64,000 nt of DNA from Chloroflexota bacterium (GTDB taxonomy: Bacteria; Chloroflexota; Dehalococcoidia; JACPQD01): assembly GCA_016190665.1 (NCBI GenBank), contig JACPQD010000065.1:1-64000 (forward strand), written 5' to 3'. A program made the translations under genes and the position numbers. The first letter of the stretch is position 1. Every line of letters starts with the position of its first letter. Shown here one piece after another: positions 8,284 to 51,512 of the stretch. Under the pieces are notes generated by a model that had not been told where the DNA came from, did not search any database, and was given only the letters and a program-made list of their open reading frames with translations.

Positions 8284-9993
8284 TCAGTTGCTCAGCCAGA
8301 CGTTCTGCCACCTGAAGTTGTTGTAGCTGCCGAACCCGGGCTTGTAGTTGTTGAGCTTCTCCGAGGCCAGGAGGGTGATCGAGTTCCAGAGGAACAGGAG
8401 CGCGGGCACCTCGTCCAGAGCGATCTGGTCCATCTGCTTGACGACCTTCTTGCGTTCTGTCTCGTCGAGTATTGAACCCTGCTTATAGTACAGCTCGTCG
8501 TACTTGGGAGAGCTGTAACCCGGCGGGGCACCCGAGGCGCCAGCCCTGTGTGCGCCGGTCACGTACCGCTTGCCGACGTCGTACGGGTCGAGGAGATAGC
8601 GCGAGTTGCCCCGGCCAAAGGTCTCGAACTTCCCTTCCTGCTCCCAAAGGGTGATAATGGTGGCGTCCTGCACATCCAAAGTCAGGTCGATGCCCACCGT
8701 CCGCAGTTGGTCCTGCAGGAACTGGGCATTGCGCATCATGTCAGTGGAGCTCTTGACCAGCATCTTCCCCTTGAAGCCGTTTGGATAGCCCGCGTCAGCC
8801 AGCAGCTTTCTCGCCTGGGCGCGGTCATCCTCCTTTGGCGGCCTCCAACCGGGCATCTTGAGCAGTTCCTCGTTTGGGACACCCCAGTCAGGGAAGTGGC
8901 TGGCGATGTAAGCCTGGCCTTCGAGCACCTTGATGCCCGCTTCCCGGTCGACTGCCAGGTCGGCGGCTTTCCTCACTCGCACGTCGTCCCACGGCTTCGC
9001 TGTCTGATTCATGGAGAGCTCGGCGGAGTTGAGCGACACCGTTTTGAAGACCTGGGTGGCCGGCTTGGCCTTCACAATGGAGTCCACCTGACCCGGGGTG
9101 ACCGAACCGGAGCCTGTCATGGTCACGTGCACGTTGCCGGTCCTGAAGGCTGCCGCCCTGGCTGTCCCGTCCTTTATGATGTAGATGGTTATGCCATCGA
9201 GGTAAGGCCGGTCCTTGATGAAGTAGTCTTTGTTCTTCTCCACCCTCCACATGACGCCGGGGGCATAGTCCTTGAACCTGAACGGGCCGGTGCCCATGAT
9301 GTCCTTCTTCATGTCGCCCTTGGCCTGGATTACGTGCGGCGGCAGCATGAGCATCCATCCCTGGGCAAGCAACGGGACAATATTGAACGCCTGTTTCAGT
9401 GTGATCTTCAGGGTCACTGCGTCCGTGGCCTCCACCTTATCGATCGGCTTGAGGTACTCCGCCCTGGGGCTGCGGACGGCAGGGTCCATCATCCGCTCCA
9501 GGCTAAACTTCGCATCGGGGGCGGCGAAGGCCTTACCGTCGTGCCATTTAACGCCTTCAAGGAGGTGGAAGGTCAGCAGCTTGCCGTCCGTGCTGTATTC
9601 CCATGTCTTCGCCAGGTCACCTATGACCTTGCTGGGATCGAGCGGGTCATACTGGACCAGGCCATTGTAGACCGGCATGACCGGGTGGAGCAGGGCAACA
9701 CCAGGGGCGCTGTGAGCGTCGAAGTTCGGGGGATCCCCGGCTTCATTGAGAAAGAGGGTGCCTCCCCGTCTCGGCTGCTCCGCTGCCGGCTTTGGGCTCG
9801 AAGTTGGCGCCGCCGGCTGCGGGGTTGGTGGAGCTGGCTTGGCTGGCGCTGCCGTTGGGGCTTTGGCAGCGGCTGGTGCTGCGGGCTTTGCCGTGGGCGC
9901 TGGCGCAACTGCCGGGGCGCAACCCGCCAGAGCCAGACCAAGGACGGTAAGAACCTGGACCGATAGGAGCATGTAATGTCTTGTTGCCTGCAT
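8284..9993 (-). CDS. Lipoprotein substrate-binding protein, SBP_bac_5 (peptide/nickel/organic solute type)
   Basis: About 569 residues. ATG 9993 follows a perfect GGAGG. A signal peptide ends in LALAGC, a lipobox, so the mature protein should be a lipid-anchored Cys lipoprotein; an Ala/Pro/Lys-rich linker follows. The SBP_bac_5 core begins GGTLFLNEAGDPPNFDAHSA and includes VKWHDGKAFAAPDAKFSLERMMDP, typical of DppA/OppA/NikA-type cluster C proteins. The C-terminus ends YNNFRWQNVWLSN, a signature shared with the other copies in this window. No ABC permease or ATPase is nearby. Probably binds an organic substrate outside the membrane for import or sensing; specificity unknown. Confidence 0.9.
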   Translation of the reverse strand: MQATRHYMLLSVQVLTVLGLALAGCAPAVAPAPTAKPAAPAAAKAPTAAPAKPAPPTPQPAAPTSSPKPAAEQPRRGGTLFLNEAGDPPNFDAHSAPGVALLHPVMPVYNGLVQYDPLDPSKVIGDLAKTWEYSTDGKLLTFHLLEGVKWHDGKAFAAPDAKFSLERMMDPAVRSPRAEYLKPIDKVEATDAVTLKITLKQAFNIVPLLAQGWMLMLPPHVIQAKGDMKKDIMGTGPFRFKDYAPGVMWRVEKNKDYFIKDRPYLDGITIYIIKDGTARAAAFRTGNVHVTMTGSGSVTPGQVDSIVKAKPATQVFKTVSLNSAELSMNQTAKPWDDVRVRKAADLAVDREAGIKVLEGQAYIASHFPDWGVPNEELLKMPGWRPPKEDDRAQARKLLADAGYPNGFKGKMLVKSSTDMMRNAQFLQDQLRTVGIDLTLDVQDATIITLWEQEGKFETFGRGNSRYLLDPYDVGKRYVTGAHRAGASGAPPGYSSPKYDELYYKQGSILDETERKKVVKQMDQIALDEVPALLFLWNSITLLASEKLNNYKPGFGSYNNFRWQNVWLSN

Positions 9994-10100
9994 ATTTTGC
10001 CTCCTTATGCTTGGGGCCACCTTCCGCTACTCACCGTTACGCGGCTTACTGCTAGACAACCAACATGCAACCCCTCCTGGTGGCTGCGATCAACCTTCTG

Positions 10101-10484
10101 CTACTCGCCAATAATGCGGCTTACTGCCAGACAATCAACTCCCGGGGGAAGCCAGCAGGAATGCTTGCCCTCTCCCCCGGCGACCATTATCAGGATGTCG
10201 TCCTTGCTGGTACCGATAGGCAAGATGCCGTCCTCTCCTACATCCATGTACGTATCCGGATGTTTCTTCCTGAGCAGACGGTTGCCCTCAGAGATTTGCC
10301 GGAAAGGAATGCCCGCGTGCTCGAAGAGGAAGGCCTTGATGTCCTCTTTGCTGAACCCATCCCTGGCGATTGTGGCGGCGTGCTCAAGCCCCAGGCAGAC
10401 GATGGGCGGGAAATTGCCGGTAAGGTTCTTGCCGCGCGGGTTATTCAACTTCCATGTATCTTGTTGCGACATTGCGAGCTCCAT
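10101..10484 (-). CDS. Small protein resembling the C-terminal domain of the UGSC-family protein
   Basis: 127 residues with no TM helix or signal. The order of motifs PPIVCLGLEHAATIARDGF, SKEDIKAFLFEHAGIPFRQ and DDILIMVAGGEGKHSCWLPPG parallels the end of the 23481-25175 protein (LLCLGPSIASVIAKGGW, KKDDIRQYLYESVRFPARV, DWIGIVVSGDPGRNQSKGY). The similarity is visible by eye and moderate. ATG 10484 follows AGGAAGTAGGTAG; an internal ATG at 10472 is possible. It ends in TAG, not UGA. It may work with the UGSC protein or be a leftover subunit. Function unknown. Confidence 0.7.
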   Translation of the reverse strand: MELAMSQQDTWKLNNPRGKNLTGNFPPIVCLGLEHAATIARDGFSKEDIKAFLFEHAGIPFRQISEGNRLLRKKHPDTYMDVGEDGILPIGTSKDDILIMVAGGEGKHSCWLPPGVDCLAVSRIIGE

Positions 10485-14645: not shown

Positions 14646-16307
14646 TTACTTGTCGGCCAGCCAGACGTTGACGAACCTCTCCCCATCGTGCTGTGTCTGA
14701 GGTATCCGATAGTTCTTGACCTTCGACTGCCAGGCCCTCCACATCCCTCCGCTCCACAGCAGGACCACTAACGGGATCAGCTCCTCCAGTCTCTCGTTGG
14801 CCTGGCGTATGATTGCCTTGCGCTTGACCGGGTCCTGTTCTCGCGATTGAAGCTCGATGAGCTTGTCCAGCTCAGGGTCATTCAGGTTTGAGTAGTTGGA
14901 CGGTGAGCCGCCCTTGTAGAACCTCTTGAGCAGAAGATCAGGCTCATTCACCGTCACGCTGTTTGGCCCGGAATGGCTGTCGTAGGCCCGCTTCTCGCGA
15001 AGGTCATAGAAACCTGCATCGTCCAGCGTCTTGATCGCAAGGTCGATGCCGATCTTGCCGAGTTGATCGCGCAGGAAGACGGCCTGTGCCTCGTATTCTC
15101 CTCCCATACGGTACAGGACTGATGTCTTAAGCCCGTTTGGATAGCCCGCTTCGGCCAGGAGCCTCTTGGCCTCGGCAATATCTGCGTCCTTTGGCTGGCG
15201 GTAGCCGGGTTTCTTCAGCAGTTCCTCGGTCGGGATGCCTCCCATTGCCTCCGGGATATAGCCGCCGATTGTTCCCTGGCCATCTGTCAGGATGTTCACG
15301 GCCGCCTGGCGGTCTATGCCGAGATGGACCGCTTTGCGTACTCGGATGTCCGTCCAGGGTGCCTTATCGACTGGGAGGAAAAGGGAGGGGAACTTGCCCA
15401 CCGGATGGTCCGCGACCGTGCCCTCCTTGAACACCTCCTTAAGCCTCATCATGGAGACGGTGCTAAGTCCCACTATGAAATTCACCCGCCCGGCGCGTAA
15501 CGCTGCGTTGGCAGCTGACTGATCGGAGACGAAGTAGGTCCGGAGGCCGTCCAGATAGGGTCTCCCGGGTAGGAAGTAGTCCCTGTTCTTCTCCAGCTCC
15601 AGTGAGACGCTCCTGTTGTGCCGCTTGAGCTTGAAGGCCCCGGTGCCGACCACGTCCTCCTTCATGCTCCCCTTCTTGTCGAGGATATGCTGGGGTATCA
15701 TTGCAGCCCAGCTTATCGCCATGAAGCTGGGAAAGGCGGCGGCGGGATAGCTCATTGAGACCTTCACCGCGCTGTCGTCGGAGGCCGCAACGCTCTTTAC
15801 CGCCTCCAAGCCCGGCCCGACCTGGACGTGCTTCTTCAGCTTCTCCATACTCAGCAGAACGTCCGCAGTAGTAAGCGGATTCCCGTCATGCCACTTGACG
15901 CCCTCCCTCAATTTGAAGGTGTAAGTGGTGCCATCCAGGCTCACGGTCCAACTCTCGACGAGATCAGGGACTATCTTTCCTGGCTCGAGGGGGTCATTCT
16001 GCAGCAGACCATTGTAGGCGGGAGAAAACGACCAGATGGCCGTCTGACTGGCGTCGCCATGCATATCGTAGTGGCGCGGTTCCGTCCGAATGCTGAGTTC
16101 CACGATACCCCCGTATCTTGGCTGCTGGGCGGCAGGCGTCAACGTAGGGGCCGGCGCAGCCGGAACGGGAGTACGTCCCTCTGCCTGCGGCTTCGCAGCC
16201 AGGTCCCCTTGTTTGGCGACAGGTGCGGCAGCGGGGGCGCAGCTTGCGACGAGCAAGGGGGCCGCTAGGAGCCAGACAATGGTTGGGAAGAGCTTCTTGG
16301 TTGCCAT
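14646..16307 (-). CDS. Lipoprotein substrate-binding protein, SBP_bac_5, second copy
   Basis: 553 residues; ATG 16307 follows AAGGAGGGG. The signal peptide ends LLVASC, a lipobox. Core motifs are RYGGIVELSIRTEPRHYDMHG and VKWHDGNPLTTADVLLSMEKL. It is more diverged from the other three copies than they are from each other, and ends RFVNVWLADK. No permease or ATPase is adjacent. It lies between the glycyl radical enzyme and the activase stump, which suggests that its ligand is a substrate of that pathway. Confidence 0.9.
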   Translation of the reverse strand: MATKKLFPTIVWLLAAPLLVASCAPAAAPVAKQGDLAAKPQAEGRTPVPAAPAPTLTPAAQQPRYGGIVELSIRTEPRHYDMHGDASQTAIWSFSPAYNGLLQNDPLEPGKIVPDLVESWTVSLDGTTYTFKLREGVKWHDGNPLTTADVLLSMEKLKKHVQVGPGLEAVKSVAASDDSAVKVSMSYPAAAFPSFMAISWAAMIPQHILDKKGSMKEDVVGTGAFKLKRHNRSVSLELEKNRDYFLPGRPYLDGLRTYFVSDQSAANAALRAGRVNFIVGLSTVSMMRLKEVFKEGTVADHPVGKFPSLFLPVDKAPWTDIRVRKAVHLGIDRQAAVNILTDGQGTIGGYIPEAMGGIPTEELLKKPGYRQPKDADIAEAKRLLAEAGYPNGLKTSVLYRMGGEYEAQAVFLRDQLGKIGIDLAIKTLDDAGFYDLREKRAYDSHSGPNSVTVNEPDLLLKRFYKGGSPSNYSNLNDPELDKLIELQSREQDPVKRKAIIRQANERLEELIPLVVLLWSGGMWRAWQSKVKNYRIPQTQHDGERFVNVWLADK

Positions 16308-23480: not shown

Positions 23481-25175
23481 TCACGGGTGAGGAACAATCA
23501 TCTTCCTGCTCACCGGCACCCCTTGCCTCTGGTTTTCCATGTATCCCTTGCTTTGATTCCTGCCCGGATCGCCGCTGACGACTATGCCTATCCAGTCAGG
23601 CCTCAGGAACACCGGCACCAGCCTGTCCGGGTCTTCCGATTCGGCGAAGTCCTTCGAGATCAGTCCCTCTCCGGCTAGCTGATACAAGCTCACTTTGTGC
23701 CCGCTCGTCTGCCGGTCAAGGTGCTCGAGCACTCTGGCCGGAAACCTCACGCTCTCGTAGAGGTACTGCCGGATATCATCCTTCTTCCAGCCGCCCTTAG
23801 CGATGACGCTCGCGATGCTCGGTCCGAGACAGAGCAAGGGGAACATGAGGCCGTTTCGAGCCGATGTAGCCGTCCAGTAGCCCATCGATCTCCGCCCGAT
23901 GATCTCGGCGATGGTCTCCATGTGCTCGAGGGGCGTGTTACCGCCGCTGTAGCACGGCGGGCTGATGCTCATGCAGCTCTGCACCGTGACCACGTTGTCG
24001 CCGGCCTTGAACCCGCGGTCCACGCTGAAGGGCTGCCAGTCCATCTCGCTCACCGCATCCTCGTTCTCCGCCAGCACCACATTGAACGTCTGCGCTATGC
24101 TGGCCTTGTCGGTCTGCCCCGGCGCGATGCGCAATCCCGGGATATTCCGCATGTAGAGCCGCAGGAAGCGGCCGATGCTCGTGTTCGCCTGCCGGCCCAC
24201 CCGCATCACTGATGCTCCGTAGTTGAAATCCAGCTCCTTGATGACGGGCCCGTTGAGGACGATCAATGGCTCCCAGCCAGGTGTGCTTCCCGCGTCCTCA
24301 ATTCGGAAGTCCGGGTCTCAGATGCACTCCACCACGGCGATCAGCACCGGCATGTACTCGGGGCGACAGCCCGCCATCACCCCGTTGACCGCTACGTTCC
24401 AGATGGTGGCCTGGCGGTTCTCGGGAAGGAGCACGCCCAGGACCTCGTTCGGCGAGCGGTCGGTGTAGCGCAGGAACTTCTCCACGCGGTCGATAGTGGG
24501 GGGCATGACCGGCAGTCCCTCCGACCACATGTTGCGGTGGAAGTACTCCTGCATCTCATCGAGGCTCCCCTCGAACACGATGTCTCTTGGCTCCGGCTCG
24601 GCGGTCCTTGCGGCACTCTGAATCGGAGTCGTCAATCCGATGATTACGTTGCCCGCGACCTCCTCTTCGACCTTTCGGCGCAACTCCTGCGCCGTGTCGA
24701 TCATAGGTACGCCCGGATATTCGGCGATAGGGATGTTCTCCACGCCCATGGCCCTGGCAATGGCTTCTCCCTGCCTCACGAACCCGGAAGCGACGATGGA
24801 GACGGTGCGGACGCCGCTCTTCTCGGCGGTTGCCGCTGCCCGCACGACCGCGGGCGTACAGCTCCCTCAGGCCCCAACCCCGGAGACGACGAGGTCACAG
24901 CCATGTTCCTTCAGTTTCTCCGGAAGCGCCGCAAGGAACTCGCGATGCTTCGGCCCTGAGGTCCGGCCGAATCGGCGGTAATCGAGGAACCGGATGCCAG
25001 GGTACCTGTTCGAAAGGATTTTTCTGAGCACCCTGAACATCTCGTCGCCGCGGAACCCTTCGGTCCAGAGCTCGCAGACGGTCTTACCCCTCAGGTCTCC
25101 GCTTCGTTCAGCCAGTCGAGGGCTATCCCCAGCGCACTTCCCCAGCGGCCAGACCACCTGATACGAGTCCATCAT
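23481..25175 (-). CDS. UGSC-family selenoprotein with two in-frame UGA codons
   Basis: Read through both UGAs the protein has 564 residues. Start ATG 25175 has no clear ribosome site. Codon 103 (24869-24867) is UGA in GVGA-U-GSCTPAV, the defining motif of the UGSC family known from metagenomic selenoproteome surveys; homologues have Cys-GSC. Before it lies the expected CELWTEGFRGDEMF..VLRKIL segment. The second domain (GLPVMPPTIDRVEKFL, AVNGVMAGCRPEYMPV) runs to VVECI, then codon 286 (24320-24318) is UGA, followed at once by DPDFRIEDAGSTPGWEP and IVLNGPVIKELDFN, which continue the same conserved domain. The first UGA has a good SECIS hairpin; the second has weaker ones. Likely a cytoplasmic selenol-based reductase or lyase of unknown substrate. 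It lies beside a class II aldolase and aldehyde oxidoreductase. If the second UGA is a true stop, the product ends at residue 285. Confidence 0.82.
24267..24309 (-). promoter_or_regulatory. Weak SECIS candidates for the second UGA of the UGSC protein
   Basis: Two hairpins are possible after the UGA at 24320-24318. CTTCC/GGAAG (24309-24305 with 24290-24286) closes a 14-base loop starting 14 bases after the UGA, slightly too near. TGGCT-GGG-AGCCA (24279-24267) is a neat triloop but starts 44 bases away, slightly too far. Neither fits as well as the other three hairpins in the window. Confidence 0.3.
24838..24855 (-). promoter_or_regulatory. Candidate SECIS hairpin for the first UGA of the UGSC protein
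   Basis: On the minus strand GCCCGC and GCGGGC form a 6-bp stem around the loop GGTCGT. The loop starts 18 bases after the UGA (24869-24867) and begins with two G, which fits the bacterial SECIS pattern. Energy was not computed. Confidence 0.6.
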
Positions 25176-25285: not shown

Positions 25286-26578
25286 TCAACTTGTAGCGTT
25301 TGCCGTGAAGCGCTGCACGAGGGCGGTGGTGTCAACAACACCGAGTTTCTGGAAGACCAGCGAGAAGTTGGCCTCGAGTTCCTGCCCTATCCCTTCGAGA
25401 TTCCCTCCCGAGAGGCCCCAGAGATCCTCCTTGAAATCGCCGAATGCGTGCTTGCGGGCCTTGCGCAGAAACTGTTCCTGCGTATCCTTGGGTTTCCTTT
25501 CGTCCGCGTACCTCTCCAGCAGATGCCTGTCGATCCTCCCAAGCAACTCTTGCGGGAAACTCCGGCTATCGAAGATCACGTTCTGAAACCCGGTGGCCAG
25601 GTGGATTTCAGCAACACCCTTGCTCGGGAATACGTCTAGGGCCTCATCGGGGAGAGTCGAGTTCCCATGCTGGACTGCTCCGGCCATACCGAACTCCGCC
25701 CGAGCCACTCTGGATGTCTCCTCGAGCGCCTCGAAATCAATTTTCACCCGCGCCGTTGACCCGTCTCGCAGGGCCACTTCCTTCTGCCCCACCTTGGTTT
25801 GAACACTGATCTTGGAGATGCCCGGCGTGCCCGGCGCCAACCTGCTCAGGTATCCGCCCATGAAGGCTCTTACGTCGTCCGCCCTGCTGTTCCTGCTCGC
25901 GATGTCCCCGATTTCCCCACCCACCGAAACGGTCATTCCTGCGGGCTCCGTGCCTCTTATGAGGCTTGTCACGCCAGCGGTCACCGCGCAGTTCTTTTCC
26001 TCCCCGGGAGCCAGCCCTTCGATCTCGGAAAGCGTCGAGGCGTCCAACTGGATGTTCAGGAAGCCGGCGGCTACCGACTCCCGAATCAACTCAATAATGC
26101 CGGCAAGTTCCTTCTCCGCATCGGAAGCATATCGTTTGGGGTTCACCTTGAAGTGGTGTCCCTGAAGGAAAACAGGGCCCCTGAACGCCTCCTTCACCGC
26201 CGCCGCCAGCACACAGGCAGCGAACTCGGCGGGCCTCTGTTTGGTGTATGCTATTTCCGAACACGCGATGTCAAAGATGAAGGCGCCTACCTTGTGCCTC
26301 ACGGCTGCCTTGAACACCATTCGTGCGACCTGATAGGTCATGCCGCGAATGCCAATCGCAGGAACCGTCTTGCCTGTGTATAACCCCTTTCCGGCGGCCG
26401 TATAGAGCCCCTGAATGCTTGCGGGATACGCTCCCTGACTGGCGGCCAGTCTCCGGATCTCCCGGCGGTGCTGCTCTCTCGCTTCCTCGGTTGAGGCAAA
26501 CACCGAATTGTGGATCAGGCTGTCAATACCTTTCATCATTCCCCCTGGCCCCAAACTGGCGTTTTGTGCCCGGCCCAT
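25286..26578 (-). CDS. Class II fructose-bisphosphate aldolase-like protein
   Basis: 430 residues. Motifs: VFLQGHHFKVNPKRY (metal/substrate region, QGDHFQ in relatives), SVGGEIGDI (metal Glu of the GGEIG motif), MAGAVQHGNSTLPDEALDVFPSKGVAEIHLATGFQN (the HGxSTLP..NTATGFQN-type phosphate/metal site). The family cleaves ketose bisphosphates or related aldols and uses Zn. The extra N- and C-terminal length (about 80 residues) is typical of the long class II subgroup. Start ATG 26578 has AGGAGG twelve bases upstream; ATG 26539 after GGGGGA is an alternative. The gene lies between aldehyde oxidoreductase and the UGSC selenoprotein, so its aldehyde product may feed the oxidoreductase (inference). 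Confidence 0.8.
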   Translation of the reverse strand: MGRAQNASLGPGGMMKGIDSLIHNSVFASTEEAREQHRREIRRLAASQGAYPASIQGLYTAAGKGLYTGKTVPAIGIRGMTYQVARMVFKAAVRHKVGAFIFDIACSEIAYTKQRPAEFAACVLAAAVKEAFRGPVFLQGHHFKVNPKRYASDAEKELAGIIELIRESVAAGFLNIQLDASTLSEIEGLAPGEEKNCAVTAGVTSLIRGTEPAGMTVSVGGEIGDIASRNSRADDVRAFMGGYLSRLAPGTPGISKISVQTKVGQKEVALRDGSTARVKIDFEALEETSRVARAEFGMAGAVQHGNSTLPDEALDVFPSKGVAEIHLATGFQNVIFDSRSFPQELLGRIDRHLLERYADERKPKDTQEQFLRKARKHAFGDFKEDLWGLSGGNLEGIGQELEANFSLVFQKLGVVDTTALVQRFTANATS

Positions 26579-50453: not shown

Positions 50454-51512
50454 ATGACATCCAGAGAAGAGATTCGCCTGACCTCGATGGTCAGCGCCGC
50501 GGGGTGAGCTGCTAAGCTCGGTCCGGAGGACCTGGCGCAGGTTCTGCGTCAATTGCCCGAGATACATGATCCCAATTTGCTGGTCGGGCTGAACACAGGG
50601 GACGATGCCGCTGTTTATCGGCTGAACGATGAGCTGTCGCTGGTGGAAACGGTCGATTTCTTCCCTCCTATGGTGGACGACCCTTACACCTTCGGCGCTA
50701 TCGCTGCCGCTAACGCCGTCAGCGACATCTACGCCATGGGAGCTTGTCCTCTCATCGCTCTCAGCCTGGTCTGCTTCCCCCGCGAGTCGCCTGATCTACC
50801 CCTCAGCGCCCTGGTGGAAATACTCAAGGGCAGCGCCGACAAAGCGGCGGAGGCTGGGTTTCCTATCGTGGGTGGACACACTGTGGCGGATAAGGAGCCG
50901 AAATACGGGCTTGCCGTCACCGGGCTGGTGCGCACCGGCAAACACCTCACTAACGCTACCGCCCGTCCCGGCGACCAGCTCATCTTGACCAAGCCCCTTG
51001 GCACGGGTATCATTGCGACGGCCCTCAAGTCGGGCCTTGCCCGCCCGGAAACGATCTCGAAGGTGACCTCCATTATGACTACGCTGAACAAGGCGGCGTC
51101 AGAAGTCATGGTGGCCATCGGGGTGAACGCCTGCACGGATGTAACCGGCTTCGGCCTGCTGGGACACCTGACAGAAGTGACTCAGGCCAGCAGGGTTTCG
51201 GCTGAAATAAGACTCGCGCAGGTACCTGTGCTCGAAGAGGTATGGGGATTCATCGCCGACGGGATAGTTCCCGGCGGCAACTACCGGAACCTGAAGTACG
51301 TCGCCAATTGCGTCGTGTGGGATGAGGGGGTATCCGAGGACGCCAAACTGGCCCTTTGCGACCCGCAGACCTCAGGCGGGCTGCTCATATCTGTATCGGC
51401 GGACAAAGCGGCAGCTCTGAAGGAGGCGCTGAAGGCGGCGGGAGTGGAGACCGCAGCCGACGTGGGAAGGATATTGGCCGGTCCAGCGGGCAGGATTAGC
51501 GTGGTACCCTAG
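50454..51512 (+). CDS. selD: Selenophosphate synthase, itself a selenoprotein (UGA at codon 18)
   Basis: 352 residues if UGA at 50505-50507 is read as Sec. ATG 50454 has AAAAGGA six bases upstream; ATG 50448 is too close. The N-terminus reads RLTSMVSAAG-U-AAKLGPEDLAQVL, so Sec takes the place of catalytic Cys17 of E. coli SelD (GAGCGCK). A start after the UGA would lose this residue and the conserved N-terminal segment. Further motifs are TGDDAAVYRLND, VSDIYAMGA, VGGHTVADKEP, TKPLGTGI and CTDVTGFGLLGHL. It makes selenophosphate from selenide and ATP, the donor for tRNA-Sec. SelA, SelB and tRNA-Sec are not in the window. Confidence 0.95.
50516..50536 (+). promoter_or_regulatory. Candidate SECIS hairpin in selD
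   Basis: GGTCC-GGA-GGACC (50520-50532) is a perfect 5-bp stem on a triloop, extended beyond one C/T mismatch by GCT (516-518) with GGC (534-536). The loop starts 18 bases after the UGA and begins with G. Confidence 0.65.

Follow-up and report, generated by a model that had tools for sequence, protein, structure and literature searches.

The fused UGSC selenoprotein gene described here, which lies in the window (the whole 64,000-nucleotide stretch of DNA that was analysed), is predicted from sequence to be one of at least 174 selenocysteine (Sec)-coding copies of a single enzyme family in one genome. In our overall reading, the window gene belongs to an expanded family of UGSC selenoenzymes in which Sec-103 is inserted by means of a SECIS element and the enzymes reductively cleave solutes supplied by binding proteins, while a further in-frame UGA at residue 286 is a recent stop or an error. 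We consider the chances of this joint account to be evenly balanced, and its parts are graded separately below.

Gene, reading frame and domains

The reading frame runs on the minus strand from 25175 to 23481, passes through two TGA codons and stops at a third (23483-23481). A preliminary description of this DNA, made from its letters, proved exact in its coordinates, strand, frame, two TGA codons, GVGA-U-GSC motif and length of 564 residues, and was also right to describe a UGSC selenoprotein in a catabolic setting, fused to a conserved C-terminal domain. The gene has the following features:

23481..25175, minus strand: fused UGSC selenoprotein gene; 564 codons, two internal in-frame TGA codons being read through
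24642..25160, minus strand: UGSC domain, residues 6-178, Pfam PF24696; flavodoxin/Rossmann-like in the model
24867..24869, minus strand: predicted Sec codon UGA, residue 103; 174 genomic copies have UGA at the aligned position, and some other genomes have Cys
24838..24855, minus strand: SECIS-type hairpin directly 3' of the Sec codon; bases 15-21 pair with 26-32 around a GTCG loop
24318..24320, minus strand: second in-frame UGA, residue 286; lies at a helix end in the model; probable nonsense mutation or sequence error
23484..24593, minus strand: C-terminal partner domain, residues 195-564; matches neither Pfam nor NCBIfam families

Residues 6-178 match the Pfam UGSC family (PF24696), scoring 98.6 bits where the cut-off is 25, whereas the NCBIfam equivalog NF041046 (UGSC_fam) scores 54.6 bits against a cut-off of 125. 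By these profiles the protein is assigned to the UGSC family of Pfam and stands outside the NF041046 equivalog. The first UGA (24869-24867) lies within GVGA-U-GSC as claimed, placing a Sec codon in the U/C-G-x-C motif. The same genome holds 22 other full-length copies that are 64-74% identical to the window protein, each with one TGA. In the AF2 model (pLDDT 87), the best PDB neighbour of the UGSC domain is the FMN azoreductase 3u7i (E 7e-4), with a low TM score.

A Pfam search of the whole protein gave no match besides UGSC, and no NCBIfam family fits the other 370 residues. Searches of the PDB with the partner domain, both by sequence and by fold, returned nothing at E <= 0.001, and weak resemblances to class I fumarase and cyclic amide hydrolases were not relied on. 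The domain has a nearly invariant cysteine, Cys-270. Across 181 copies in the genome, UGSC and partner domains are fused in 123, split and nearby in 53, where the partner is a separate adjacent gene, and unpaired in 5. A short, weak partner-domain match elsewhere in the window (10101-10484, minus strand) adjoins a binding-protein frame at 8284-10020 and looks like a remnant.

Predicted selenocysteine at residue 103

Taken together, the sequence evidence leaves us nearly certain that UGA-103 is read as selenocysteine. Most loci from other genomes have UGA at this site and several have Cys (Curtobacterium and Chelativorans are examples), in line with the earlier statement that the family carries either residue there. 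A SECIS-like hairpin, with a loop said to start 18 nucleotides past the UGA, had also been proposed, and it is borne out by folding, with a minimum free energy of -24.1 kcal/mol and a z of -1.75 against synonymous shuffles. A SECIS element, as is characteristic of the family, can thus be recognized computationally after UGA-103. When the segment from the UGA to +48 was folded in all 174 copies and compared with synonymous recodings of the same peptides, the mean z was -0.99 ± 0.09 (s.e.m.), as against -0.09, +0.21 and -0.08 in three control windows under the same test; the folding signal downstream of the Sec UGA exceeds chance. Over the copies the stem falls at 17-21/27-31, with one strongly covarying pair, 18-30, which alternates between G-C and C-G and is paired in 94% of copies against 51% expected. 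The register of the stem is not the same in every copy, so that the other pairs covary less.

The genome encodes SelA, SelB and SelD, with SelB present as a single, full-length protein. The selD gene itself lies in the window:

50475..51407, plus strand: selD (selenophosphate synthase), with an in-frame TGA; TIGR00476 386-392 bits

This UGA-containing SelD is a probable selenoprotein in its own right. Searches of this draft assembly with an Rfam model, a DNA pattern and a pattern based on relatives did not find tRNA-Sec, the best match to the Rfam model being a tRNA-Ser; tRNA-Sec is present in three genomes of the same class. Genome-wide reassignment of UGA to a sense codon was considered and rejected: of about 974 called frames, 308 terminate in TGA, and the window gene does so too. 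How one SelB supplies so many Sec codons is a question that these genes raise.

Expansion of the family within one genome

An initial scan of the genome gave at least 150 UGSC matches among about 207-208 first-look candidates, and a strict DNA motif occurred 131 times genome-wide as against twice in a reversed control. From the 5.0-Mb draft genome, which probably belongs to the Chloroflexota, we collected 1.83 Mb of DNA around UGSC hits. This DNA contains 181 UGSC domains and 181 partner domains and, since it covers 129 of the 131 strict motifs, the true total should be near 181. A Sec UGA is present in 174 of the UGSC domains and Cys at that site in none; the other seven lack the motif or are fragmentary. 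Among other genomes of the class and phylum that were searched, the next highest counts of first-look candidates were 50, 38 and 28.

Mixed strains or contamination could inflate such a count, in which case the true genome would have far fewer UGSC genes. The estimated contamination of 6.13% and a published warning about mixtures in metagenome-assembled genomes (PMC13188914) speak for this explanation. Against it, the copies are well diverged from one another (nearest-copy identity has a median of 70% and a maximum of 91%), two single contigs of about 350 kb carry 24 and 21 Sec copies, and the 49 contigs over which the copies are spread have similar G+C contents of 58-63%. We therefore regard inflation of the count as very improbable; strain duplicates as the origin of the copies are rejected on their divergence.

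Three UGSC-domain proteins, at C101:25288, C58:14994 and C62:25418 of the same genome (G000), have neither a Sec codon nor UGxC and are of a GCSG/GWSG type; their function may differ.

The UGSC-containing protein was described by Zhang and Gladyshev as belonging to a selenoprotein family that ranks among the commonest in environmental samples, and ocean metagenomes had already revealed its fusion to a conserved domain, 'Unknown_1' (PMC2398784). The genes studied here share with that family the Sec in UGxC and the habit of fusion, and Unknown_1 may correspond to the partner domain. They differ in number, a single genome having at least 174 Sec copies, in a partner that is either split or fused, and in having solute-binding genes as regular neighbours. 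The largest published selenoproteomes that we found belong to the Olavius Delta 1 symbiont, with 57 selenoproteins, and to a Methylomirabilota MAG, with 63 (PMC13188914). These bacteria are likewise rich in selenoproteins, yet neither total amounts to half of what the UGSC copies by themselves contribute here. A minimum of 174 Sec copies would be nearly three times the larger of these totals and, if the assignment is true, would make this by far the largest selenoproteome known. According to passages in two papers on SAR202 Chloroflexota (PMC5395668, PMC10444878), expanded paralogues of catabolic enzymes are thought to widen substrate range; the expansions treated in those passages serve organic-matter oxidation, whereas the expanded enzyme here is a selenoprotein.

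Solute-binding proteins as regular neighbours

The neighbourhood of the window gene includes the following genes:

25289..26578, minus strand: class II aldolase-like protein, the gene just upstream; PF01116 29.6 bits
30080..31801, minus strand: SBP_bac_5 solute-binding protein, PF00496 260 bits; member of a 228-member cluster
14649..16307, minus strand: SBP_bac_5 solute-binding protein, PF00496 232 bits

Genes for a glycyl radical enzyme, an AOR and the aldolase-like protein do lie near the window copy, as the preliminary description had it, but the pathway context that it drew from them is not shared by the other copies. What recurs beside UGSC genes is a solute-binding protein. Clustering of the called frames in the 1.83 Mb yielded one giant cluster of 228 members, whose representative is SBP_bac_5 and whose members, in the examples shown, start with lipoprotein-like signal sequences. 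The permease and ATPase clusters have 11, 10 and 7 members, giving about ten permease pairs as against 228 binding-protein frames. A gene of the SBP_bac_5 cluster lies within 1 kb of 80 UGSC genes, where label shuffles predict 37.1 ± 4.7, and 144 of the 181 have one within 3 kb. These counts are approximate, because frame calling simply took the longest frames first and the DNA had been selected for its UGSC genes. UGSC loci in other phyla contain TctC receptors (54 copies in 22 loci, identified through a representative), which adjoin the UGSC genes in Betaproteobacterial relatives, and some loci, Betaproteobacterial ones among them, also lie beside selA or selB.

These observations make a link between UGSC enzymes and solute uptake likely. 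Tight pair-by-pair co-evolution of binding proteins with enzymes was considered and set aside, as co-inheritance of the pairs is weak (Mantel r 0.08; nearest neighbours shared in 6 of 98). Given how loosely individual pairs co-evolve, reshuffling of binding proteins and enzymes seems to have taken place. Solute-binding genes as regular neighbours would give the UGSC family a general context, the uptake and conversion of many solutes, and the ligands of the binding proteins would offer a direct route to UGSC substrates.

Proposed function

The literature surveyed, which lay outside a 2025 neighbourhood paper in mSystems (10.1128/msystems.01417-24), yielded no function for UGSC proteins. The UGSC domain carries a predicted U-x-x-C pair, which we read as a redox pair, next to a partner that elsewhere is a separate adjacent gene. 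At the Sec site there is a weak profile similarity to the D-proline reductase subunit PrdB (TIGR04483), which is likewise described with UxxC; the score of 20.1 bits falls short of the PrdB cut-off of 300. Because the UxxC pair sits on a flavodoxin-like domain, the partner has a nearly invariant Cys-270 and the site weakly resembles PrdB, we tentatively suggest, by analogy and at somewhat less than even confidence, that the Sec attacks an imported solute and that a bond is cleaved reductively. In such a scheme, a family 5 lipoprotein solute-binding protein would hand a specific solute over to one of a small set of shared permeases, the Sec of the UGSC enzyme would attack the imported solute as a nucleophile, and the UxxC pair would then form a selenenyl sulfide. 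The resulting reductive cleavage would be comparable to that of proline or glycine reductase. The substrate would differ from copy to copy.

UGSC proteins might instead be general redox or detoxification proteins, similar to thiol reductases, with the binding proteins reflecting no more than a transporter-rich genome. The UxxC motif and the flavodoxin-like fold are generic enough for such a role, and the weak co-inheritance of binding proteins and enzymes would fit it as well. However, about 170 diverged paralogues suggest substrate diversification, and adjacency to binding proteins both exceeds the shuffled expectation and recurs in Betaproteobacteria with an unrelated receptor family, so that we think a general redox role rather unlikely. 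If the enzymes are instead substrate-specific and fed by uptake, one bacterium would possess a selenium-based catabolism of about 170-180 specialised selenoenzymes, most with an adjoining binding protein, a picture that we hold to be as probable as its negation. The glycan loci of Bacteroidota, or the dehalogenase sets of Dehalococcoides, would then have a selenium-based counterpart.

The second UGA

The second UGA (24320-24318) is real in the assembly and in the same frame, and the preliminary description took it for a second Sec codon in one 564-residue double selenoenzyme. The length and Sec-103 stand; Sec at residue 286 does not. In favour of double decoding, the frame stays open for 278 codons beyond UGA-286 with its conserved residues intact, and Cys does happen to occupy the aligned column in three homologues from other genomes. 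The column is unconserved, however: it holds Ala or Ser in the genomic copies nearest to the window gene, 22 in number (codons TCC, TCG, TCA and GCN), varies among A, V, T, I, L, S, G, C and Q in other homologues, and has no conserved Cys or Sec. An internal UGA occurs in only 1 of the 181 C-domains of the genome, that of the window copy, and the region 3' of it shows no SECIS-like hairpin in the synonymous-shuffle folding test (z +1.18). With residue 286 also placed at a helix end in the model, we reject Sec at this position, and decoding of both UGAs as selenocysteine is highly unlikely.

Homologues ending at the second UGA would have refuted the preliminary description by its own terms, but they do not end there. 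Downstream of residue 286, 2 of 72 residues conserved in all other copies are changed in the window copy, within the range of 0-5 for the others, and because these residues are intact the stop must be recent or not real. A close paralogue (C52) has TCA (Ser) at this position, one base from TGA. Most likely, then, UGA-286 either arose recently by nonsense mutation, for instance from TCA to TGA, or is an assembly or sequencing error. The second of these alternatives would leave the gene an ordinary intact copy and is favoured by the draft state of the genome (107 contigs) and by the lack of any further lesion alongside the intact conserved residues; single-base errors are uncommon in well covered contigs, and we regard an error as plausible but somewhat improbable. 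If the base is real, the window copy is probably not made at full length.

A UGSC copy elsewhere in the genome (G000 C101:30934-31440, minus strand, locus L120) reads UGTU, a second TGA replacing the Cys three residues after the Sec. That Cys is otherwise invariant (173 of 174), and a neighbour 80% identical to this copy reads UGTC. Judged by its sequence, this copy is a more credible candidate for a double selenoprotein than the window gene.
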